This document shows, piece after piece, positions 5,483-23,230 of a stretch of DNA of 24,534 nt (the stretch's first letter is position 1; each line of letters starts with the position of its first letter). The position numbers and the translations under genes are program-made. The notes beneath the pieces were generated by a model. The model saw only the letters and a program-made list of their open reading frames with translations, did no database searches and was not told the origin of the DNA. The stretch covers positions 1 through 24,534 of IMG/VR virus record IMGVR_UViG_3300014501_000073. The stretch is one strand, 5' to 3'. Source of the stretch: a virus.

Positions 5483-6985
5483 ATGGGCGCTGGTCTCTCT
5501 GTCTCTGACGTCATCAGCGTCACCGTCAATCTCTCGCCGCCGGGCGCTCAGTTCGCCAACCTCGACACCGCCGTCATCATCGGCGACTCGCCCATTATCG
5601 ACACCGGCAGCCGGCTGCGCACCTATGCGACGCTTGCCGAAGTCGCCGCCGACTTCGGCACGAGCGCGCCAGAGTACGCCGGCGCGGCGCTTTTTTTCGC
5701 TCAAAACCCCACGCCGCAACAGCTCTATATCGGCCGATGGGCGGCGGAGCCGACGAACGGCCTGCTCATCGGCGGCACGCTCTCGGCGCCTGCGCAGATC
5801 ATCGGTGACTGGACGTCGATTACCGCCGGCGCGTTCAAGATCCAGGTCGACGCAGCCGCATCGCCCGTCGAGGTGGGGCCGATCAATTTCTCCGGCGCGA
5901 CGACATTCCCAGGCATCGCCGCGCTCGTCTCGACGGCGCTGACGACGGCCTCCGTAGGCGCGACGTGCACATACGACGCGCTGCGTACACGCTTCATCTT
6001 CACGTCGGCGACGACGGGGGCCGCGTCGAAGGTAAAGGCGCTGACGACTCCCAGCAGCGGGACGGATATTTCGTCGTACATCGGCGGCTCTGTCGCCGGC
6101 GGCGGCGATGAAGTCGACGGGCTCGCCGGCGAGTCGGCGCTCGCGGCCGTCGAGGCGATCGACGCGCTGCCGACGTCTGTCTATGGGATGACGTTCGCGA
6201 CGACTTCGGCGCTCGCCAACTCGGATCACGAGGCGATCGCGGCCTATATCCAGGCCAATTCGAAGCCTCACATCTACGGGATTTCGACGGCCGATCCAGC
6301 CGCGACCAACCCTGGGCTCTCCACCGATATCGGCTCGATCCTCATGGGGCTCGGCTACACCCGCACCTTCCTGCAGTACTCCAGTCTCACGTCATGGGCC
6401 GCGTGCTCGATCTTCGGCCGCACGGTCACGGTCAACTTCCAGGGCTCGAACACGACGATCACGCTGGCGTTCCAGACCGAGCCGGGCATTGTCGCCGAGA
6501 CGCTGACAGAGACGCAGGCGGCGGCGCTCAACGCCAAGCGCTACAATTACTTCGCCAACTTCAACAACGGCACCGCGATCCTGATGAATGGCTGGTGCGC
6601 CGGGCCGGCCTATATCGACGAAATCTTCGGCCTCGACTGGCTGGCGAACGAAGTGCAGGTCGATCTCTTCAACTTCCTGGCGACGGTCGGCACGAAAGTG
6701 CCTCAGACGGACGCGGGCAACAATGCTCTCGCTTGCGAGGCCGAGGGCGCGCTCGAACAAGGCGTCGACAACGGTCTGATAGCGCCGGGGTATTGGAACA
6801 GCGGCGGCTTCGGTGCGCTCAACCCTGGCGATTTCATGCCCAAGGGCTGGTACGTCTATCCGAATCCGATGGCGACGCAGGCCGCCGCCGTACGCGCCAC
6901 GCGCGCCGCGCCGCCGCTTCAGATCGCCGTCAAGCTCGCCGGCGCGATCCAGAGTGCCGACGCGCTGATCAACGTGAATAGGTAG
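5483..6985 (+). CDS. Contractile tail sheath protein (DUF3383 family)
   Basis: 500 residues with GGAG five bases before the ATG. The N-terminus (LSVSDVISVTVNLSP) and the segment GDSPIIDTGSRLRTYATLAE followed by FFAQNPTPQQLYIGRW are hallmarks of the DUF3383 sheath family. The middle (about residues 85-200) is the variable surface domain. The C-terminal part, with FGLDWLANEVQVDLFNFL and GYWNSGGFGALNPGDF, is the conserved core that interlocks sheath rings. The length is normal. A tube gene follows four bases later. This gene is the main evidence that the tail is contractile. Confidence 0.9.
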   Translation: MGAGLSVSDVISVTVNLSPPGAQFANLDTAVIIGDSPIIDTGSRLRTYATLAEVAADFGTSAPEYAGAALFFAQNPTPQQLYIGRWAAEPTNGLLIGGTLSAPAQIIGDWTSITAGAFKIQVDAAASPVEVGPINFSGATTFPGIAALVSTALTTASVGATCTYDALRTRFIFTSATTGAASKVKALTTPSSGTDISSYIGGSVAGGGDEVDGLAGESALAAVEAIDALPTSVYGMTFATTSALANSDHEAIAAYIQANSKPHIYGISTADPAATNPGLSTDIGSILMGLGYTRTFLQYSSLTSWAACSIFGRTVTVNFQGSNTTITLAFQTEPGIVAETLTETQAAALNAKRYNYFANFNNGTAILMNGWCAGPAYIDEIFGLDWLANEVQVDLFNFLATVGTKVPQTDAGNNALACEAEGALEQGVDNGLIAPGYWNSGGFGALNPGDFMPKGWYVYPNPMATQAAAVRATRAAPPLQIAVKLAGAIQSADALINVNR

Positions 6986-7846: not shown

Positions 7847-8046
7847 GCGTCGATCTCGTCGGCCTGCCTAGCGGCGAAGACTGGCTGTTGCGGCCCGTCA
7901 TGCGCGGCAAGCTGATGTTCGAAAGCCTGAAAAACGGCACCCTCGATCTTGTGGACGTCGCGCTTTTGAACGACGCTCTCGACTGCTCAGACGAGAACGA
8001 TCGCCGCGTCGCGGCCGAGCTGGAGGCGCAGAAGCGCAATGGCTGA
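7445..8046 (+). CDS. Tail assembly chaperone frameshift fusion (GT-like)
   Basis: After slipping back one base at 7807, translation continues for 79 codons to TGA 8046, giving about 200 residues in total. The added part contains GVDLVGLPSGEDWLLRPVMR and ESLKNGTLDLVDVALLND, a conserved-looking fold that I associate with DUF6889-type chaperone extensions. This frame lacks a credible start of its own, is rich in host-like codons, and its end overlaps the tape-measure ATG (ATGGCTGA). In the lambda model the fused part recruits tube protein to the tape measure. Its expression ratio cannot be read from sequence. Confidence 0.7.
7801..7832 (+). promoter_or_regulatory. Programmed -1 ribosomal frameshift site: T TTT TTT heptamer plus hairpin
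   Basis: Seven consecutive T at 7801-7807 are phased X XXY YYZ relative to the chaperone start, the canonical -1 slippery arrangement. Two bases downstream, CGCCGA (7810-7815) can pair with TCGGGCG (7826-7832) with one bulged G and a ten-base loop, a plausible stimulatory hairpin. The -1 frame is then open to 8046. Lambda G/GT and many other phages use this logic between tube and tape-measure genes. Confidence 0.75.
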
Positions 8047-9769
8047 CGACACCGCGGTCATCAAAGAATTCCTCGTTTCGCTCGGCTTCGCGATCAAAGA
8101 GGGCGACTGGAAGAAATTCACCGACGCCGTAAATCGCGCGAACAAGCCCGTCGCCGACGCCGACAAGCGCTTCGCCTCTCTGACGAAGACGATCGAGGGC
8201 CTGAAGAATTTCGTCGGCGCCGCCGCAACGCTAGGGGGGCTCGATCGCTTCGTCGTCGCCGTCGACAAGGTCGCGACGAACCTCGACAACCTCTACTGGC
8301 AGTCGATCAGGACATCGACGAGCGCGCAGAATCTAAAGGCCCTCGGCTATTCGATGGGCCAGACCGGCTCGTCGGCGCAGGCGGCGGCGCAGGCGATCGA
8401 GGCGTTCACCTATGCGCAGAAGGCGAACCCCGGCCTTACGGGCCTACTCGCCGGCTTTGGGATACAGACCCATACGGTGAGCGGCGCGCTGCGCGATCAG
8501 AGCGCCGTCATGCTCGACTTTTTCGCCAAGCTGAAGTCGATGCCCGAGTACCTGGCGATCCGCTACGCCGCGCTTTTCGGCATCGGCGATATCAAGACGA
8601 TCGAGTCGCTGATGCGAAATCAGAAGCGATTCGGCGATCAACATAAGGCGTTCGCGCGCTCGATCGGCCTCGACATGGAAACGGCGACGCGCCAGGCGAA
8701 CGACTTCAAGACAGCCGAGGGCGAGCTGTTCGGTGATCTCGATCTGCTCGTGCTCAAGGGGGGCGCCAGCCTCATCGCGTGGCTGGAGGACGTCGGCAAC
8801 GCGAACGGCGGTCAGCTCGGCCAGCTCGCGTCGGATATGCAGGCGCTCAGCGCCGCGTTCAGATCGCTCGGCGACGCCTTCGGCCTCGAAGGCAAGACCA
8901 TCAGCGGCGCGATCGCCGCGGGCTTTCGCGGCGCGCTCGCCTTTCTCGACGAGTTGCTGAAGCAGATCACCCACACGGCGCTTGCGCTTTCGGCGCTGCG
9001 CAAGGGCGATTGGGCCGGCGCCGCCAAAGAGGCCGGGCTTGCTGTCTCGACGAGTCCGCTAGGCACGCTCGCCAAGTATGCGACGGGGCGCCTTCCTGGG
9101 CAGACGGGGTTCGTCGGCGCGCAACCGCTGCCCACGGCGCGCCCGGGGCCGGCGGGAACGGTCGCGGGGCCGAGCGCTCCCGCCGCGCATGGTCTGACAG
9201 ATCCTCTAGGCACCGTCAGCCAGCGCGGCTCGGCGATCCTGCGCCTCTTGACGGGCTATGGAGTCAGCCTGGAGCGTGCGCGAGGTATCGTCGCCGGCAT
9301 GTTCGCTGAGAACAACACGCTCGACCCAAATCGCCGCAACTCGATCAGCGCCGGCAAGTCGCACGCCTATGGCCTGGGCCAGTGGCTCGGCGCGGGACAA
9401 CGCGAATTCGCCAGCGTCTTCGGCCACGATATCCACAAGTCGAACCTCGGCGAGCAGATCGCCTTCATGATGTACCAGTGGCAGAAGGGCAGCGAGCGTC
9501 CCGCCGGCGGGATGATCTTGGGCGCGGCGAGCGCCGGCGACGCGATGACGGCGTATCTCGCCAACTACATGCGGCCGGGGACAGGGCTCGGCGGCGATCT
9601 CGATCGAGGTGGTCGCGCGCTCACCTCGCAGCCGATCTTGATCAGCCAGAAGACCGAGATCCACATTCACGGCGTTAGCGACGCGAAAGCCGCCGGCGCG
9701 TACGTCGCCGACCAACAGACGGCCGTGAACGCGCGCCTGGCGCGAAACTTCAAATCGGCCGTGCAATGA
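8039..9769 (+). CDS. Tape measure protein with C-terminal tail-lysozyme domain
   Basis: 576 residues. Residues 1-350 are mostly helical with few charged breaks, including FKNFVGAAATLGGLDRF-like segments, as in tape measures. A Gly/Pro-rich linker covers about 355-380. Residues about 395-520 look like a phage tail lysozyme (PF18013-like): AGMFAENNTLDP with candidate catalytic Glu424, then HAYGLGQWLG with Trp449, and FMMYQWQKG. The gene follows the chaperone and precedes the baseplate genes. It is short; at about 0.15 nm per residue the tail would be under 90 nm. The lysozyme would open peptidoglycan locally during injection. The first step MADDTAVIKEFLVSLGF is a common start in this group. Confidence 0.85.
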   Translation: MADDTAVIKEFLVSLGFAIKEGDWKKFTDAVNRANKPVADADKRFASLTKTIEGLKNFVGAAATLGGLDRFVVAVDKVATNLDNLYWQSIRTSTSAQNLKALGYSMGQTGSSAQAAAQAIEAFTYAQKANPGLTGLLAGFGIQTHTVSGALRDQSAVMLDFFAKLKSMPEYLAIRYAALFGIGDIKTIESLMRNQKRFGDQHKAFARSIGLDMETATRQANDFKTAEGELFGDLDLLVLKGGASLIAWLEDVGNANGGQLGQLASDMQALSAAFRSLGDAFGLEGKTISGAIAAGFRGALAFLDELLKQITHTALALSALRKGDWAGAAKEAGLAVSTSPLGTLAKYATGRLPGQTGFVGAQPLPTARPGPAGTVAGPSAPAAHGLTDPLGTVSQRGSAILRLLTGYGVSLERARGIVAGMFAENNTLDPNRRNSISAGKSHAYGLGQWLGAGQREFASVFGHDIHKSNLGEQIAFMMYQWQKGSERPAGGMILGAASAGDAMTAYLANYMRPGTGLGGDLDRGGRALTSQPILISQKTEIHIHGVSDAKAAGAYVADQQTAVNARLARNFKSAVQ

Positions 9770-10320
9770 TCGAGACGATCACGATCTCAGCTCAGCGCTC
9801 GATCGGCTCGATCGTCATGGACGTCACGGTGCGCGAAAGTGGCGTCGACGAGCTGACGATCACTCAGCACCCCGTCGAGCAGGGTGCGCAGATCACCGAC
9901 CACGCCTACAAGAATCCGGCGCAGCTCTCGATCGAGTGCGCCGCGTCGAATTCGAGCGGCGCTGCCGGCGGCGACCCGACTTATGTCCAGGACAAGTACA
10001 ACGCCCTGCTCGCGCTTCAGCTCAGCCGACAGCCTTTCACGATCGTCACCGGCAAGCGCACTTATCAGAACATGCTCTTTCGCACGTTGGCGATCACGAC
10101 TGAGGAGACGAGCGAAAACGCGCTGATAGTCTCGGCGAGTTTCCAAGAGATCATTATCGTGTCGACGTCCTCGACGAGCCTACCGGCGACGGCGAATCAG
10201 GCGACACCGGCGGCGACGCAGGCGACGGCGCAGCAAGGTACGGTTCAACCTGTCCCCGCGACGCTGCCGACCGGCTCGGGGCCGGCGGCGGCGGTCCAGG
10301 CGAGCCTGGCGCTTCTATGA
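9766..10320 (+). CDS. Dit-like baseplate protein
   Basis: 184 residues, ATGA overlap with the tape measure. Residues 1-130 form a beta-rich domain with the pattern VRESGVDELTITQHPVEQGA, then ITDHAYKNPAQLSIECAAS and RTLAITTEETSENAL, which fits the Dit-like phage tail N-terminal domain found just after tape-measure genes in Pam3-type baseplates. The last 45 residues are a low-complexity Ala/Thr/Pro/Gln tail. It probably forms the ring that connects tube and baseplate. Confidence 0.75.
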   Translation: MIETITISAQRSIGSIVMDVTVRESGVDELTITQHPVEQGAQITDHAYKNPAQLSIECAASNSSGAAGGDPTYVQDKYNALLALQLSRQPFTIVTGKRTYQNMLFRTLAITTEETSENALIVSASFQEIIIVSTSSTSLPATANQATPAATQATAQQGTVQPVPATLPTGSGPAAAVQASLALL

Positions 10321-10628
10321 GCGCGACGTTCATTATCCCGCTTGCAGCGCCCCCTCAGGCGTTCACCTGCTCGCTCAACGGCGTGACCTATCGGCTGACG
10401 GTGATTTGGCGCAATGCGGCGCCCGGCTGGTTTCTCGATATCGCCGACGATCAGGGCGATCTCATCGTCGGCGGTATCCCGCTCGTGACCGGCGCCGATC
10501 TGCTCGCGCAATACGAATATCTGGGCATCGGCGGGCAGCTCGTCGTCGCGTCATCGAGCGACGTCGACGCGCCACCGACTTTTGCTGGTCTCGGCACGGC
10601 GACGCTGCTCTATTACGTCGCGCCGTGA
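10317..10628 (+). CDS. Baseplate plug protein (Pam3 gp18-like)
   Basis: 103 residues, ATGA overlap with the Dit-like gene. The pattern FTCSLNGVTYRLTVIWRNAA followed by GWFLDIADDQGDLIVGGIPL, LLAQYEYLGIGGQLVV and a final TLLYYVAP matches the baseplate-plug family seen in cyanophage Pam3 and many related contractile phages. In those genomes the hub gene usually comes next; here about 2 kb of other sequence intervenes. Confidence 0.75.
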   Translation: MSATFIIPLAAPPQAFTCSLNGVTYRLTVIWRNAAPGWFLDIADDQGDLIVGGIPLVTGADLLAQYEYLGIGGQLVVASSSDVDAPPTFAGLGTATLLYYVAP

Positions 10629-10669: not shown

Positions 10670-11251
10670 ATGAACGATCATCTCAGCGCTCGCGCGCAAG
10701 TGTCGGCCAAGATGCGAACCGGCGCCGGGCTCGGCGAGTACGTCAGGATTAAGGGCCTCTATCGCTGGCAGCTCCGCGCACGCGCCGGCGGCAGGATCAT
10801 CCGGGCCGGCGAGTTCGACAACGTCGTCACCTATGTCGGTCAGAATCAGCTTCTGGCCGCCGCGCTCCAGGGGGCGGCCTATAGCGTGACCGGGCCCTAC
10901 ATGGGCCTGATCTCATCGGTGAGCTACAGCGCGGTGGCGGTCGGCGATACGATGGCCTCCCATGCTGGATGGCTGGAGGCCAACGCGACCAACGCGCCGC
11001 CCTACGGGACCACGCGGCCGACGATCGCCTTCAGCGCCCCATCGGCAGGAGCAATCGCCAGCTCGGCCGCCGGGGCTTTCACCTTCACCGGCTCCGGGAC
11101 TGTCGAAGGCGCGTTCCTGGTCTTCGGGGCCGCCGCCACGTCGTCGAACACCGGCACGGTCGGGACGCTGCTGTCGGCCGGGGCCTTCGGAACCGGCCAG
11201 CCGGTCATAAGTGGCAACGTGCTGAGTGTCAGTTATTCCCTGACGCTGTAA
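10670..11251 (+). CDS. Fibre/adhesin-like virion protein inserted in the baseplate operon
   Basis: 193 residues. I chose ATG 10670, preceded by AAAGGGAAA, because the upstream in-frame extension overlaps the plug gene. A basic N-terminal part is followed by FDNVVTYVGQNQLLAAALQG, then PYMGLISSV, VGDTMASHAGWLEANA and a C-terminal beta-rich Gly/Thr domain ending VISGNVLSVSYSLTL. I know this pattern (GLI..., GDTMASHAGW..., GAFLV...) from phage proteins of unknown role that are probably exposed on the virion. A 41-base gap precedes it, unlike the tight packing around it. Codon choice has more GGG, TCC and ACC than the flanking genes. Confidence 0.65.
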   Translation: MNDHLSARAQVSAKMRTGAGLGEYVRIKGLYRWQLRARAGGRIIRAGEFDNVVTYVGQNQLLAAALQGAAYSVTGPYMGLISSVSYSAVAVGDTMASHAGWLEANATNAPPYGTTRPTIAFSAPSAGAIASSAAGAFTFTGSGTVEGAFLVFGAAATSSNTGTVGTLLSAGAFGTGQPVISGNVLSVSYSLTL

Positions 11252-11282: not shown

Positions 11283-13532
11283 ATGACCACCGTCCTTCTG
11301 ACGACCACCGGCGCGGGGACCTGGACCCCTCCGGCCGGGGTCACAGTAATCCAGACCATGTACGCCATGGGTGCGGCGGGCAACGGCGCGGCGGGCTCGT
11401 CGCTGACCGGCGGCGGCGGGGGCGGGTCGGGGCGCCTTATGTCGGCGAGCAACCTGACGGTCACGCCAGGAACGCCTGTAAACCTCCAGGTCGGGATCGG
11501 CGGGGGGACCACGGGGTCCAGCGGCACCGGCGCGACTTGGTTCAACGGAACCCAAGTCACCGGATCGACGGTCGGCGCCGGGGGCGCGGCATCAGGGACG
11601 GCCGCAGGCGTAGGCGGCGCGGGTAGCGGAAACGCTGCTGGCACTCTGGTCACCAACCCGTCCACCGGTGGGGCCGGCGGGTCGGCAAAGGGCGGCGGCG
11701 GCGGCGCGGCTAACGGGGGTACTCCCAACGCGGGCACGGCAACCGCCGGGGGCGCCGGCGCCAACGCGGCCAGCGGCGGCGGCGTGGGAGGGGCCGGAGG
11801 TACGACGACCACCGCTGCGGTCGCCGGGACCGCCGGGACTGAGCTTCCTGGAGGGATCGGGCGCGGGGGCGGTGGCGGCGGTGGGTCGCTCACCGTAGGC
11901 GACACCTCGGGGGCCAACGGCGCCCTCTACGGCGGCGGAGGCGGCGGAGGCTACGATGGCGCCGCCGGGGGCCTGGGCGGCCATGGCTTCATCATCCTTG
12001 TCTACTACGACGCGCTCGTAGCGGAATCGGTCACCGCGACCGATGCTCTGACGGCGCTGCTCGCGGCTGCGGCTACCGTAGCCGAGCTGATCACCGCCGC
12101 CGACGCGCCGACGGCGTCGCTCGCGGCCACGGCCACCGACAGCGAGTCCGTCAGCGCGACCGACGCCCTCACCCCGATGGCCCTGGCGAGCGAGGTTGAG
12201 AGCACGTCGGCGACCGATGCTCTGGTGAGCGCGATGGCCGCCCCGGCGGTGATCGCCGAGATGGCATCGGCCACGGACGGATATGGCGGCGCGCTCGCGG
12301 CAGCGGCCACCGAAGCCGAGAGCGCCGCCGCGACCGACGCCCTCGCCGCACTGGCGATCTTCGGGATATCGATTGGAGAAGACGTCCCGGCGACCGACGC
12401 CCTTACAGCGTCGCTGCTCAGTTACCTCACAGCCTCGATCGCCGAGAGCTGCTCGGCTGGTGACGGCTATACCACAACCATATCGCCGCCGACTCCTCCA
12501 CCGTCGCCGCCGTCGCCGCCGCTCCCGCCGTTCCCGCCGCCCCTATCCACGTCGGAGGGGGTGTCCACATCTGCTAGTTCCAGGGGCCAAGAGTACCTTC
12601 GAACGTGGTCCCTCGTCGTGTCCGGCGCGAGTGATGCTGTCGATCTTTCGCCGCTACGCATCAAGTTCACGGTCAAGCAGATGGACAATCAGTCGCCGAA
12701 TTACGCGACGATCCGCGTCTACAACCCATCGGCGTCGACCGTCGCCAAGGTCGCCGAATTCACGTCGGTGACGCTACAGGCCGGGTATCAGGGCGGGCCG
12801 CTCGGCGTGATCTTCCAGGGCACCGTCAAGCAGTTTCGGCGCGGGCGAGAAAGCCCGACTGACACATATCTCGAATTCATGGCCGCCGATGGCGATCCCG
12901 GCATCAACTTCGCCGTCCTCAATCAAAGCTTGGCGGCCGGCTCGACGCCAGCGCAACAGCTCAGCGCGGCGCAACAGGCGCTCGCCGCCTATGGCGTGAA
13001 GGCGGGATCGACGCCGGCAGGGCTCGGCACGACGGCGCTACCTCGAGGCAAGGTGCTGTTCGGCATGGCGCGCGACAAGCTGCGATTTTTCGCGGCTTCG
13101 CAGGGGATGACCTGGAGCGTTCAGAATGGGACGCTGACGCTGATCCCCCTGCAAGGCTTCCTGCCCGGCGCCGCGCCGGTGCTCTGCAACTCGACGACGG
13201 GCATGATCGGAATGCCCGAGCAGACGCCAACGGGGATCAAGGTGAGGATGCTGATCAACCCGCAACTCGCGATCGGCTCGCGCCTTCAGATCAACCAAGG
13301 CGACATTCAGCAAGGCGTTCAGGATCCGCAATTCACGGCGCTGCCGCTGAGCCAGGTCGATCCAGGCATCGCCGCGAACGATGGCGTGTATCGAATCTAT
13401 GTGATCGAGTACACCGGCGACACCAGGGGCAACGATTGGTATGCCGACATCATCACTCTAGCGATCGATCCGACCATCTCGCAGGGCCTTCAGCCAGAGT
13501 ACATCAACCGCCTTCTAGGACCGCCGCAATAG
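11283..13532 (+). CDS. Baseplate hub fused to glycine-rich adhesin head and repeat stalk
   Basis: 749 residues, one uninterrupted frame. Residues 1-95 are a Gly-rich beta-sandwich start (TTTGAGTWTPPAGVTVIQ, later TVTPGTPVNLQVGIGGG) as in PF21722-like tail-fibre domains. Residues 95-240 are Gly/Ala-rich with several runs of five to seven Gly. Residues 245-398 hold eight repeats centred on ATDAL. Residues 402-420 are a polyproline hinge. Residues 437-749 look like a complete baseplate hub (YLRTWSLVVSGASDAVDLSP, then NYATIRVYNPSASTVAKV, and a C-terminal AADGDPGINF region), which is normally a free protein of about 320 residues. It sits where the hub is expected, before the spike gene. Fusion of an adhesin-like arm to the hub is unusual; function of the arm is inferred. 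Confidence 0.75.
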   Translation: MTTVLLTTTGAGTWTPPAGVTVIQTMYAMGAAGNGAAGSSLTGGGGGGSGRLMSASNLTVTPGTPVNLQVGIGGGTTGSSGTGATWFNGTQVTGSTVGAGGAASGTAAGVGGAGSGNAAGTLVTNPSTGGAGGSAKGGGGGAANGGTPNAGTATAGGAGANAASGGGVGGAGGTTTTAAVAGTAGTELPGGIGRGGGGGGGSLTVGDTSGANGALYGGGGGGGYDGAAGGLGGHGFIILVYYDALVAESVTATDALTALLAAAATVAELITAADAPTASLAATATDSESVSATDALTPMALASEVESTSATDALVSAMAAPAVIAEMASATDGYGGALAAAATEAESAAATDALAALAIFGISIGEDVPATDALTASLLSYLTASIAESCSAGDGYTTTISPPTPPPSPPSPPLPPFPPPLSTSEGVSTSASSRGQEYLRTWSLVVSGASDAVDLSPLRIKFTVKQMDNQSPNYATIRVYNPSASTVAKVAEFTSVTLQAGYQGGPLGVIFQGTVKQFRRGRESPTDTYLEFMAADGDPGINFAVLNQSLAAGSTPAQQLSAAQQALAAYGVKAGSTPAGLGTTALPRGKVLFGMARDKLRFFAASQGMTWSVQNGTLTLIPLQGFLPGAAPVLCNSTTGMIGMPEQTPTGIKVRMLINPQLAIGSRLQINQGDIQQGVQDPQFTALPLSQVDPGIAANDGVYRIYVIEYTGDTRGNDWYADIITLAIDPTISQGLQPEYINRLLGPPQ
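12015..12479 (+). repeat. Eight degenerate 18-22-residue ATDAL-type coding repeats
   Basis: Repeats inside the hub fusion follow the pattern E-S-x-S-A-T-D-A-L-T-A-x-L-A-A-A, for example ESVTATDALTALLAAAAT, DSESVSATDALTPMALAS and GEDVPATDALTASLLS. At DNA level the core GCGACCGA(C/T)GC recurs with third-base drift, so they are old protein repeats, not recent tandem copies. They probably form an elongated stalk. Confidence 0.75.
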
Positions 13533-13533
13533 A

Positions 13534-14163
13534 ATGGTCGATCGAAGGGAGTACCTGGACGAGACCGAAGAGGCGGTTCGCATGGCGCTCGACGAGCGCC
13601 TCAAAGAGGTCTGGACGGCGATGCCGGGGATCGTTCAGAGCTTCAACGCGACGGCGATGACGTGCGTCGTCCAGCCGGCGATCAAGGCGAAGGTCACGAA
13701 TTTCGATCGCACGACGAAGCTCGTCGCGCTGCCGCTCTGCCTCGATTGCCCGGTGATGTTCCCTGGCGGGGGCGGCGTGACCCTCACCTTCCCCGTCAAG
13801 AGGGGCGATGAATGCCTGCTCGTCTTCGCCAAGAGCTGCATCGACGCCTGGTGGCAGCAAGGCGGCGTTCAGCCGGCGGCCGAATATCGCATGCACGATC
13901 TGAGCGACGGCTTCGCCCTCGTCGGCGTGCGCTCGAAAGTGCGCGCGCTCAGCGCTGTCTCGATGACGCTCGCGCAGCTTCGCACCGACGACGGCTTGAC
14001 CTTTGTCAGTCTCGATCCGACCGGGCAAATTGTGAACATCACCGCGCCGGGTGGTATCGTGCTCGATGGGCCGGTCGCCGTCACCGGGCCGATCGTGGCG
14101 ACGGGTACGATCAGCTCGGCGCTCGGGCTCTATGTCGACGGCGTTGAGGTGACAATCCCATGA
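13534..14163 (+). CDS. Baseplate central spike protein (Gp138 N-terminal-like)
   Basis: 209 residues, starting one base after the hub stop. The region SFNATAMTCVVQPAIKAKV, then PLCLDCPVMFPGGGGVTLTF, PVKRGDECLLVFAKSCIDAW and QPAAEYRMHDLSDGFALVG matches the Gp138 N-terminal OB-fold domain of membrane-piercing spikes. The C-terminal 60 residues (GQIVNITAPGGIVLDGPVAV and following) are a short beta-helix-like repeat that probably forms the spike tip. Its place directly after the hub fits. Confidence 0.85.
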   Translation: MVDRREYLDETEEAVRMALDERLKEVWTAMPGIVQSFNATAMTCVVQPAIKAKVTNFDRTTKLVALPLCLDCPVMFPGGGGVTLTFPVKRGDECLLVFAKSCIDAWWQQGGVQPAAEYRMHDLSDGFALVGVRSKVRALSAVSMTLAQLRTDDGLTFVSLDPTGQIVNITAPGGIVLDGPVAVTGPIVATGTISSALGLYVDGVEVTIP

Positions 14164-14513
14164 GAGTACGCGCGCAGACGCCGAGCGGGGATATGACCTT
14201 CGGGGCGAACGGCGCGAATTTTCTCGTCAATTCGCCCGCGGCTGTCGCGCAGATCGTCTTGACGCGGCTGAAGCTGCTCGCCGGCGAGTGGTTCCTAGAC
14301 GTGACGGCGGGGATGCCGTGGAAGGGCCAGGTAATCGGCGCCCACACCCAATCGACGCGCGACGAGGCGATCAAGAGCTGCATCCTGGGCACGCAAGGCG
14401 TCACGGCGATCGCGGCGGGCACCTATTCGAGCACCGTCAGCGGCCGAAATCTTCAGGTGGCCGCGACGCTCGTGACGGCATACGGTGCGATCCCCTTCGC
14501 GGCGGTGCTGTAG
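14160..14513 (+). CDS. Baseplate wedge protein (gp25 / gp46-like)
   Basis: 117 residues, ATGA overlap with the spike gene. The pattern NSPAAVAQIVLTRLKLLAGE followed by WFLDVTAGMPWKGQVIG and a region EAIKSCILGTQGVTAI fits the gp25/Mu gp46-like wedge group. It would tie the inner baseplate to the sheath. The stop is directly followed by the next ATG, which suggests translational coupling. Confidence 0.8.
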   Translation: MRVRAQTPSGDMTFGANGANFLVNSPAAVAQIVLTRLKLLAGEWFLDVTAGMPWKGQVIGAHTQSTRDEAIKSCILGTQGVTAIAAGTYSSTVSGRNLQVAATLVTAYGAIPFAAVL

Positions 14514-15701
14514 ATGACAATCCTCGCGACGCTGGCTTGCACGATCGGCCCCAACGGGATCACCGCGCCGACGTACGACCAGATCATCGGCAGTCTCGTC
14601 AGCTCATATCAGGCCGTCTATGGCGCGGACGTCTCGATCGATCCGTCGACGCAAGACTATGAAATGCTGGCGATCTTCGCCGCCGCGATCAATGACTGCA
14701 ACGCGGCGACGATCGCGACCTACAACGAATTCTCGCCGGCGACGGCGGTAGGCGTGGGGCTGTCGAGCGTCGTCAAGATCAACGGGCTGCAACGAGATAT
14801 CCCGACGAATTCGACGGCCGATCTTCTGCTCGTCGGTACGGCCGGCCTGGTGATCGGAGGCGGACAAGTAGGAGACGACCAGAACCTCGGCACGAGCTGG
14901 GCGCTCGATCCCCTGGTGACGATCAGCAACGCCGGCACCGTCGTCACGACGGCGACGTGCACGACGCAGGGCGCGGTGGCGGCGGCGGCGGACACGCTGA
15001 CGAACATCCTGACGCCGACGAATGGATGGATCTCGGCGAACAACGCGGCGGCGGCGACGCTCGGGGCCCCCGTCGAGAGCGATGCTGCGCTGCGTCGGCG
15101 ACAGAGCGTGTCGACGAGCCTGCCGGCGCTGACGCCGCTCGCGGCGATCGTCGCCGCAGTCGAAAACGTCGTCGGTGTCGAGAGCGTCGTACCTTACGAA
15201 AACGTCACCGGCTCGACCGATTCCAATGGCCTTCCGGCGCACTCGATCTGTCTCGTCGTCGCCGGCGGCGATGCTCAGACGATCGCCAATGCCATCGGCG
15301 CGAAAAAGGGGCTCTGCGATACCTACGGCTCGACGAGCGAGACGTATGTGGACCCCGGCGGCGTGAGCGTGACGATCAACTTCCAGCGGCCGGGCGCGAC
15401 GCGCCTGATCGCGGCGGTGACGATCGCGCCGCTCGCCGGCTACACTTCGACGACGGGCGTAGCGATCCTAGCGGCGATGAGCGCCTATGTCGCGAGCCTG
15501 CCGGTGGGCGCGCTTGTCTCGCTCAACGAGTTGACGGCGGTAGCTCTACTGCCTGGGACCGGCCTCGGCTCGACGTACAATATCGCGCCCGGGGAAGTCA
15601 CTCAGGCCCTCTTCGGCAATAGCTTGCTCGCGCAAGACCTCCAGATGACGTTCGACGAGGAAGCCGATCTCGCCGTGGCCGATATCACCCTGACGATATG
15701 A
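14514..15701 (+). CDS. Baseplate J-like wedge protein (gp47-like)
   Basis: 395 residues, ATG abutting the previous stop. The N-terminus (TYDQIIGSLVSSYQAVYGAD, then TQDYEMLAIFAAAINDCN) and the later region PVESDAALRRRQSVSTSLPA followed by VENVVGVESVVPYENVTG are typical of baseplate J / gp47 proteins. The C-terminal part (YNIAPGEVTQALFGNSL) is the usual conserved end. It forms the outer wedge with the gp25-like and DUF2612 proteins. Confidence 0.88.
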   Translation: MTILATLACTIGPNGITAPTYDQIIGSLVSSYQAVYGADVSIDPSTQDYEMLAIFAAAINDCNAATIATYNEFSPATAVGVGLSSVVKINGLQRDIPTNSTADLLLVGTAGLVIGGGQVGDDQNLGTSWALDPLVTISNAGTVVTTATCTTQGAVAAAADTLTNILTPTNGWISANNAAAATLGAPVESDAALRRRQSVSTSLPALTPLAAIVAAVENVVGVESVVPYENVTGSTDSNGLPAHSICLVVAGGDAQTIANAIGAKKGLCDTYGSTSETYVDPGGVSVTINFQRPGATRLIAAVTIAPLAGYTSTTGVAILAAMSAYVASLPVGALVSLNELTAVALLPGTGLGSTYNIAPGEVTQALFGNSLLAQDLQMTFDEEADLAVADITLTI

Positions 15702-17324: not shown

Positions 17325-17789
17325 ATGAGCGAACGCCGCGAAACGCTGAAGCGTGAGCTCCTAGAGCTGGCGGAGAACATGATGGCCGTTTCGGACAAAT
17401 TCCAAGCCGCGCTGACGGCGATCATCGAAGCCTATGAGACAGAGCTGGGCAGCGTGAATTCGCAGGTCACGGATCTGCAAACGCAGCTCGACGCCGCGAC
17501 GCAGGCCGCCTCCGATGTCGACGACGAGGACACCGCCGCGCTCGTCGCCGCGATGCCGACCTTCGCGGGTACTGGAAGCGTCGCCGGCGCCGGCAGCGTT
17601 GCTTCGACCGGCTCCGTGTCCACTACGGGCAGCGTCGACAATACCGGCTCGGTGGACAACACCGGCTCAGTCGACGAGAGCGGGAGCGTCGCCGGCGCCG
17701 GCAGCGTGACGAACACCGGCAGCACCACGAGCGGCCCGCAGCCGTTCGCGCCGCTGACCGACGCCGCCGGCAACCCCATCGTCACCTAG
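17325..17789 (+). CDS. Coiled-coil protein with GSV hexapeptide-repeat tail
   Basis: 154 residues. Residues 1-65 are helical with a likely coiled coil (LKRELLELAENMMAVSDKF, later LQTQLDAATQAA). Residues 82-135 are nine six-residue repeats of the form x-T-G-S-V-x (TGSVAG, TGSVST, TGSVDN and similar). The end is PQPFAPLTDAAGNPIVT. There is no clear ribosome site before the ATG. It lies between the fibre and lysis genes, so it could be a virion accessory protein, a fibre chaperone or an assembly factor. I do not recognise a named family. Confidence 0.6.
   Translation: MSERRETLKRELLELAENMMAVSDKFQAALTAIIEAYETELGSVNSQVTDLQTQLDAATQAASDVDDEDTAALVAAMPTFAGTGSVAGAGSVASTGSVSTTGSVDNTGSVDNTGSVDESGSVAGAGSVTNTGSTTSGPQPFAPLTDAAGNPIVT
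17568..17730 (+). repeat. Nine 18-base (hexapeptide) coding repeats
   Basis: Tandem 18-base units encode variants of TGSVxx; two adjacent units both encode NTGSVD with only synonymous changes (ACCGGCTCGGTGGAC and ACCGGCTCAGTCGAC), and two GAGSVx units share GCCGGCGCCGGCAGCGT. Unit number may vary among relatives by slippage or recombination. The regular small-residue pattern suggests a beta-solenoid or extended rod. Confidence 0.8.
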
Positions 17790-18973: not shown

Positions 18974-19245
18974 CGGCTCTCGCCATGATCGCCCACCTTC
19001 TGCTCGGCCTCTTTCACGCGCTGACGCCGGCGCTCGTCTTCGCCCACATTCACGCGCTCTCGGGCGTTAGCGACCATCCCCTGATCGTGGTGATCATCGT
19101 CGTGCTGCTATTCGTGTTCCTACTGCCGCGATGGGGGTACAATCGCGGCTGGTCGACACAGGCTTATGGCGGCTACGGGCCGAGCTTCGGGCTCGGCGGC
19201 CTGCTATTGATCCTGCTTATTCTCTGGCTCCTGGGGATCATTTGA
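18970..19245 (+). CDS. DUF3309-like multi-pass membrane protein (holin candidate)
   Basis: 91 residues with three hydrophobic segments: about 4-25, 38-52 (LIVVIIVVLLFVFLL) and 75-91 (LGGLLLILLILWLLGII). The motif PRWGYNRGW followed by GGYGPSFGLGG between helices two and three matches the DUF3309 layout (PxWPxSRxWGYGPSGGLG) seen in many Rhizobiales proteins. It ends one base from the endolysin TTG (TTTGA), so holin use is plausible by position. It could also be a host-derived membrane protein of unknown role. Confidence 0.55.
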   Translation: MTALAMIAHLLLGLFHALTPALVFAHIHALSGVSDHPLIVVIIVVLLFVFLLPRWGYNRGWSTQAYGGYGPSFGLGGLLLILLILWLLGII

Positions 19246-19895
19246 CCGCCTCCAACTTCCCCGCCGAGCTGGCTGACGTCCTCGTCTTCGAAGGCGGCTT
19301 CGGCGATAACCCCGCCGATCCCGGCGGCGCAACCGACTTCGGGATCACGCTGCCGACGCTTTCGCACTGGCAGGGCTCGCCGGCGACGATCGCGCAGCTT
19401 CAAGCGCTCACCGACGCGCAGAAGCGGGCGATCTATCGCACGCTGTTCTGGAGCGTGATCAGCGGTGATTTTCTGCCGAGTGGCATCGATCTGATGGTGT
19501 TCGACATGGCCGTGAACGGCGGCCCTGGCCGCGCGGCGATGATGCTGCAAGGCTGTCTCGGCGTCGAAGTCGATGGCGATATCGGCCCGCTGACGCTCGC
19601 CGCGGTCAACGCGCTCGGCGGCAATTCCCGCGTCGCGATGATCGACAGCTACGCCGCGCGGCGCGAAGCTTTCTATCGCTTGTTGCCAACCTTCGCGACG
19701 TTCGGCCACGGCTGGCTGGCTCGCGTCAACACTGTCGCGCAGGAGGCGATCGACATCGCCAATGCGCCGCCCCCGTCGCCCGCGTTGTCGCCTCCCCTCG
19801 GCGCGGGCGATACCACCGCCAGCGGCAACACCTTCGTCAACACCGGCTCGATCACGAACGGCATCCAGACGAACGATCAGGGGAACGGCCAATGA
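19242..19895 (+). CDS. Endolysin, glycoside hydrolase family 108 with PG-binding domain
   Basis: 217 residues from TTG 19242, which overlaps the preceding TGA; an upstream in-frame start lies inside the membrane-protein gene. Residues 9-32 carry the GH108 signature (VLVFEGGFGDNPADPGGATD) with catalytic Glu17 predicted. Residues about 75-110 and 100-165 include DLMVFDMAVNGGPGRAAMML and VEVDGDIGPLTLAAVNALGG, a PG_binding_3-type domain. The enzyme cleaves the glycan strands of peptidoglycan. There is no signal peptide, so a holin is required. The C-terminal 35 residues are an unusual Pro/Gly/Asn tail ending NDQGNGQ. Confidence 0.9.
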   Translation: MTASNFPAELADVLVFEGGFGDNPADPGGATDFGITLPTLSHWQGSPATIAQLQALTDAQKRAIYRTLFWSVISGDFLPSGIDLMVFDMAVNGGPGRAAMMLQGCLGVEVDGDIGPLTLAAVNALGGNSRVAMIDSYAARREAFYRLLPTFATFGHGWLARVNTVAQEAIDIANAPPPSPALSPPLGAGDTTASGNTFVNTGSITNGIQTNDQGNGQ

Positions 19896-22778: not shown

Positions 22779-22955
22779 TCAGAACCCCGCCGGCTTGAGG
22801 CGCACGAACCTCGACATAATCCCTTCGACCTTGACCTCGATGAGCCCGCGCCTTTCGAGCACGTCTAGTGTCGGCGACGCCACGAAGGTGTGCGCCCACT
22901 CGCGACCGATCGAGCGCAGAGCGTCGGCCTGCGCGTAGCTGAGGCGCACGCTCAT
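22779..22955 (-). CDS. Small winged-helix-like protein
   Basis: 58 residues from ATG 22955, which overlaps the preceding stop as ATGA; a start 42 bases earlier would give 72 residues but overlap the previous gene. The pattern LSYAQADALRSIGREW, then SPTLDVLERRGLIEVKVEG and RFVRLKPAGF fits a compact winged helix in which a RRGLI helix end is followed by a beta wing. Such proteins often act as transcription regulators in phage early operons. The assignment is from layout only. Confidence 0.5.
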   Translation of the reverse strand: MSVRLSYAQADALRSIGREWAHTFVASPTLDVLERRGLIEVKVEGIMSRFVRLKPAGF

Positions 22956-23230
22956 CGATATGGGTTCGATCGCATCGAACCGTCCTTCCTGGGCCACGAG
23001 CTACCTTGGGGAAGGCTCTCGCGGGTCTCCATGCCCTTGAGACCGCGCCGATTGAGCACGCCGGCGACGGTGTTGCGGGTAATGCTGAGCGTCTGAGCGA
23101 TCTTGCCGGCGCTGTAGCCGAACCGGCGTAGCTGTTCGATCGCGGCGTTGCGCGCTTCGTTCCCTGAGAATCGCTCTAACGCCTTCCTCATTGTTGCCCG
23201 GACGTGGGGCGCGCGGGGTGCGCGGGCCAT
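22952..23230 (-). CDS. GcrA-like helix-turn-helix protein
   Basis: 92 residues, ATG overlapping the preceding stop (ATGA). Residues about 28-66 read IEQLRRFGYSAGKIAQTL, then SITRNTVAGVLNRRGLKG, a helix-turn-helix close to the N-terminal DNA-binding part of GcrA, an alphaproteobacterial sigma70-associated cell-cycle regulator. The GcrA C-terminal domain is absent; the C-terminal 25 residues are polar and basic. It may regulate phage genes or compete at host GcrA/methylated-DNA sites; that is inference. An internal ATG at residue 14 is an alternative start. Confidence 0.55.
   Translation of the reverse strand: MARAPRAPHVRATMRKALERFSGNEARNAAIEQLRRFGYSAGKIAQTLSITRNTVAGVLNRRGLKGMETRESLPQGSSWPRKDGSMRSNPYR

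Follow-up and report, generated by a model that had tools for sequence, protein, structure and literature searches.

In this work, we showed that one uninterrupted reading frame of 749 codons (11283..13532, + strand) in a metagenomic virus record encodes a baseplate hub that carries a long additional arm at its N-terminus. The hub is intact and of the E217/Pam3/PhiTE type. The arm is made of a glycine-rich domain, a repeat region and a polyproline linker, and the glycine-rich domain is, as judged by sequence comparison, homologous to the tips of the tail fibres that phages of this tail type carry. On balance, we consider it somewhat probable that the product of this frame is a hub whose N-terminus bears an arm of fibre-tip type, which arose by capture of a gene cassette and displays a putative binding domain.

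Results

The reading frame and its place in the tail module

The window, by which we mean the whole analysed stretch, is a virus record of 24.5 kb with a GC content of 66%, and contains the tail module of a small phage whose contractile tail is of E217/Pam3 type. The genes for the sheath (5483-6985), the tape measure (8039-9769) and the tail protein phrog_817 (9766-10320) are followed by those for the baseplate plug of the Pam3 gp18 family (10317..10628, +; PF22479, E = 1.8e-26) and a phrog_8123 protein of 193 aa (10670..11251, +). The 749-codon frame comes next, and the baseplate spike (xxxxx_N, PF18352; 13534..14163, +) and the wedge genes (14160-15701) lie downstream of it. The gene order plug-hub-spike agrees with a hub placed between tube and spike. 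The tail fibre of the phage (16277..17290, +; phrog_11303) has an N-terminal type common to the fibres of relatives L052 and L070, and is without a glycine-rich tip.

Several other genes of the window were also recorded. The product of 17325-17789, adjoining the fibre gene, has a coiled-coil-like start and then about 10 GSV/TGSVDN repeats. An endolysin of the Glycosyl hydrolase 108 type, which also has a peptidoglycan-binding domain, is encoded at 19131-19895, and its annotated start overlaps the membrane-protein gene ahead. A small protein (22952-23230, −) gave a weak GcrA-like/HTH match, which hints at an alphaproteobacterial host.

The first-pass annotation had put the arm and the hub in the same frame at 11283-13532, and this was confirmed, with no stop codon inside. 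Third-position GC was 0.81 in the arm and 0.79 in the hub, and the sheath and wedge genes had similar values (0.84 and 0.83). The frame and the codon-position pattern were clean across the arm, and signs of decay were absent. Since the fusion is known from a single metagenomic contig, GC reaches 76% at 11401-12000 and a (CCGTCGCCG)n repeat immediately precedes the arm-hub join, the glycine and proline repeats might have been misjoined during assembly, with loss of a real stop and start. However, the frame stays open and well behaved over the join and the operon order of the phage is otherwise intact, and we regard an assembly artefact as highly improbable.

A tblastn search of the arm against phage records gave no match. 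When viral contigs were scanned with the arm, with the proteins of sheath and wedge and with a DNA pattern of the hub start, no close relative came up, in results from which records very near the window may be absent. The single contig and this lack of close relatives weigh against the reading that we prefer.

The hub domain

The claim of a complete hub domain at about aa 437-749 (12591..13529, +) held up in both sequence and structure. These residues alone matched PHROG 196 'baseplate hub' with E = 1.3e-59, and scored 26.6 bits against PF22759 (E217_GP41), for which the curated cut-off is 27. The hubs of phi92, Pam3 and PhiTE (9cuy) were retrieved from the PDB by a profile built from relatives. 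For aa 440-730, an AlphaFold model with 74 relatives in the alignment had pLDDT values that were mostly about 88-98 and fell to 60-67 around residues 640 and 690, and its fold matched the PhiTE, Pa193, Bas63 and E217 hubs with Z of 22.8-25.5. The free hubs of E217 (gp41), Pa193, PhiTE and Pam3 (gp19) have the hub fold, the sequence family and the plug-hub-spike order of the window; unlike the window hub, they are without an N-terminal arm. The first residue of E217 gp41 (287 aa in the structure) is equivalent to aa 436 of the window protein.

Hub starts and extra domains in relatives

Hub starts were compared over two overlapping sets of 80 and 79 viral contigs, 80 bacterial-genome loci and 7 phage records. 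Proteobacterial relatives have a hub that begins 2-15 codons before its first strand and usually lies 10-50 bases from the plug gene, or behind an inserted gene. An arm like that of the window was absent from every Proteobacterial relative examined. In a survey of 385 genomes of one class, none of the seven hub matches had a frame longer than 421 aa from stop to stop. In other high-GC loci, among them L014, L044, L117 and L130, long in-frame stretches ahead of the hub were considered as fusions and rejected, as they overlap the plug gene, which is read in another frame.

Five relatives from Firmicutes genomes carry in-frame N-terminal domains of about 165-200 residues on a hub directly after the plug gene. 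L176 and L177 have a Glucosaminidase, L182 and L185 a Phage_lysozyme2 domain and L173 a lysozyme-like domain of the SLT_3 family; among solved structures, FlgJ comes closest to the L177 arm. These hubs share with the window the hub family and the N-terminal in-frame site; they have hydrolases, without repeats or polyproline linker, where the window has a fibre-type domain. Two further arrangements were seen: the L170 hub has an SH3 domain behind its first strand, and the L185 hub also has an NlpC/P60 domain near its C-terminus.

Enlarged hubs are also known from published systems. The hub gp15 of cyanophage A-1(L) contains a lysozyme (56-265), an endoglucanase (266-430) and a peptidase (736-899) (PMC10966104), and is enlarged by several hundred residues like the window hub. 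Its extra domains are enzymes, and two of them are inserted after residue 55 according to structural alignment, which led us to reject gp15 as a case of an N-terminal arm such as that of the window. The diffocin hub-hydrolase CD1368 carries C-terminal hydrolases (PMC11329794); as in the window hub, a functional module sits on a linker, and in CD1368 the module is C-terminal and hydrolytic.

In the first-pass annotation, the hub of such a baseplate was taken to be normally a free protein of about 320 residues. This fits the Proteobacterial relatives examined in that they are without such an arm, and is too strong as a general rule, since the five Firmicutes relatives bear N-terminal hydrolase domains and A-1(L) and diffocin hubs carry extra domains as well. 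The first-pass annotation also named relatives with a stop between the two parts as evidence against the fusion. Such stops were seen for the hub alone, and as no relative has the arm, the fusion is not refuted. A hub with an extra module is therefore a known architecture in which the N-terminus is one accepted site, and the modules found so far on other hubs are wall hydrolases or wall-related, rather than a binder of fibre type.

A probable old hub start at the junction

A GGAGG motif followed by GTG (12554..12563, +) was overlooked in the first-pass annotation. The GTG at 12561 is aa 427 of the frame and lies 10 codons ahead of the first conserved hub residue, where relatives start their hubs. 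The hub start of L035, MTTSASNKEEKESGR-QWLRK, can be compared with VSTSASSRGQ-EYLRT, which is read from GTG 12561 in the window. Pairing of the Shine-Dalgarno (SD) sequence of GTG 12561 with the anti-SD was the strongest among 28 starts tested (-10.0 kcal/mol), and the SD of ATG 11283 was weak (-3.2 kcal/mol). This GTG is probably the ancestral start of a free hub gene, and a free hub may still be made from it in some amount, alongside the armed hub.

Two products could thus come from one frame, namely the 749-aa arm-hub protein and a free hub from GTG 12561, with only some of the three hub subunits armed. The position and pairing strength of the GTG speak for this, whereas its SD spacer of 1-2 nt, far shorter than the usual 5-9 nt, and the use of mostly ATG as hub start codon by relatives speak against it. 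We consider this arrangement rather unlikely. The SD of this GTG is strong, if poorly spaced, and a large share of the hub may be produced in free form.

A glycine-rich domain of fibre-tip type

The first 242 residues of the arm (11283..12008, +) form a domain that is probably of the tail-fibre-tip (Gly_rich_2 / Pam3 gp24) type. The earlier suggestion of a glycine-rich fibre-type domain ahead of the hub was borne out: glycine makes up 35% of aa 1-242, and the domain aligned collinearly to 3 fibre tips of relatives with z of 6.7, 6.4 and 5.4 against composition shuffles. A similar glycine-rich domain is the C-terminal tip of the fibres in relatives L005, L047, L052, L070, L140, L129 and others. 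The fibres of L140, L070, L047, L129 and L020 pass the cut-off of PF21722 (Gly_rich_2); among the aligned fibre tips, L070 does so, as does L047, which is near-identical to L005. Against the same profile, aa 7-242 of the window protein span positions 1-226 with 12.3 bits, below the cut-off of 24.3, and the window domain is for this reason termed Gly_rich_2-like.

The domain surfaced only through the fibres of relatives and with a trimmed query. At default filters, scans of the arm with Pfam and PHROG were uninformative, PF21722 had no match in the record of the window itself, and phmmer with the glycine-rich domain alone found nothing in the PDB. When eleven fibre tips were combined with the window domain in one profile, the Pam3 tail fibre was retrieved from the PDB with E = 1.8e-6. 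The structural model of the domain was of low confidence (mean pLDDT 54.5); its top folds were the Pam3 fibre, with Z of 8.7 (175 residues) and 8.0, and then the Bxb1 tail-tip protein with Z of 7.6, the next row being at 3.5. In Pam3, the TNF-like and glycine-rich domains of the fibre have been described as recognising the host receptor (PMC9608196). The Pam3 fibre gp24 and the L047, L070 and L140 fibres share the glycine-rich domain with the window arm; these peripheral fibres have the domain as their C-terminal tip, whereas the window hub has it at the N-terminal end. More generally, the domain ends the protein in most Gly_rich_2 ORFs placed in other genomes, and begins it in the window.

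As every other N-terminal hub arm found carries a peptidoglycan-hydrolase fold, the arm might instead be a structural or wall-penetration module, which takes the place of the hydrolases of other hubs and is not an adhesin. However, no match to peptidoglycan-hydrolase or other enzyme families was found when the arm was compared with Pfam, which makes wall cutting unlikely, and the only recognisable domain of the arm probably has the fibre-tip fold. Such a module is in our judgement improbable.

Repeats and linker

The glycine-rich domain is followed by eight units of about 20 aa with the consensus E-x-x-[ST]-A-T-D-A-L (aa 248-400; 12024..12482, +). The period-20 autocorrelation was 0.32, a value reached by 0 of 2000 shuffles, and a 60-bp DNA repeat was found at 12030-12166. 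The eight ATDAL repeats announced in the first-pass annotation are therefore present as units, with literal ATDAL in only five (aa 252, 292, 310, 350 and 370); the other three read AADAP, ATDGY and AGDGY. AlphaFold gave low-confidence helices over aa 248-400. The polyproline hinge, which had been noticed as well, is present by sequence as a linker at aa 401-421 (12483..12545, +).

Two stand-alone proteins of 520 and 851 aa, at 2497-4059 of L101 and 7141-9696 of L103, have many ES-x-[ST]-A-x-D repeats, and their genes sit downstream of phrog_8123 genes. The likeness of these ESxSAxD repeats to those of the window is by eye only, and we rejected their identity, as the unit profiles failed to cross-match either way.

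The plug-hub junction as an insertion site

Extra genes, 0.3-2.3 kb in size and often encoded on the other strand, lie between plug and hub in L010, L015, L020, L026, L033, L048, L061, L079, L088 and others, and as read by eye these genes include small Arc-like and Bro/KilA-like regulators. In the window, the site is occupied by the phrog_8123 gene (10670-11251) and then the arm. Unrelated phages (L091-L107) have phrog_8123 genes upstream of a range of tail or adhesin-like genes, and no match was obtained when the phrog_8123 protein of the window was searched against phage records with tblastn. As a separate observation, phrog_8123 proteins are possible partners of tail or adhesin-like proteins. 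In the window, the phrog_8123 gene and the arm gene were probably acquired together, in a single cassette.

We infer that a cassette of two genes, phrog_8123 and a glycine-rich repeat protein, would have entered the plug-hub junction, and that its second gene would then have lost its stop and run in frame into the hub at the old start codon. Considering the junction at the old hub start and the phrog_8123 context, a cassette running into the hub is the simplest account. The fusion could also be accidental: an independent adhesin gene would have lost its stop, and the arm would be removed by cleavage or be carried along with no function at the hub. This agrees with an arm at a site of frequent gene inserts, with the junction at the old hub start, and with a fusion shared by no other phage examined; but the clean frame and codon-position pattern of the arm, the absence of decay and the retained period of the repeats argue against it. 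We hold such an accident to be distinctly unlikely.

Discussion

We return to the reading that we prefer, a hub with a fibre-tip-type arm that was gained from a captured cassette. In solved relatives, and in solved baseplates such as that of Mu (PMC11915804), the hub forms a trimer, and each virion would accordingly carry three arms. On flexible stalks made of the repeats and linker, the putative binding domain would extend outwards from the centre of the baseplate, next to the spike. The arms would then add a second, central and weak cell-surface contact to that of the six peripheral fibres. A further step, in which the hub of a simple contractile tail took over a fibre-tip receptor-binding domain from the peripheral fibres and three central arms read the cell surface, is proposed tentatively, as a possibility of less than even chance.

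If this further step is true, the window hub would be a contractile counterpart of the central fibres of siphophages, placed at the opposite end of the hub protein. The lambda gpJ protein binds the receptor. Like the window hub, lambda gpJ and T1 gp33 are central tail-tip proteins that form a fibre too, as described for T1 gp33 (PMC11945409), but they belong to siphophages and their fibre is C-terminal.

If the arm and hub are made as one protein, the hub N-terminus of small contractile tails takes binding modules besides wall-cutting enzymes, and the hub would be a second, three-fold platform for host contact. The window also offers a concrete example of genes inserted at the plug-hub junction that were possibly recruited into the baseplate. 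It raises the question whether hub contact, besides that of the peripheral fibres, affects when a contractile tail fires.
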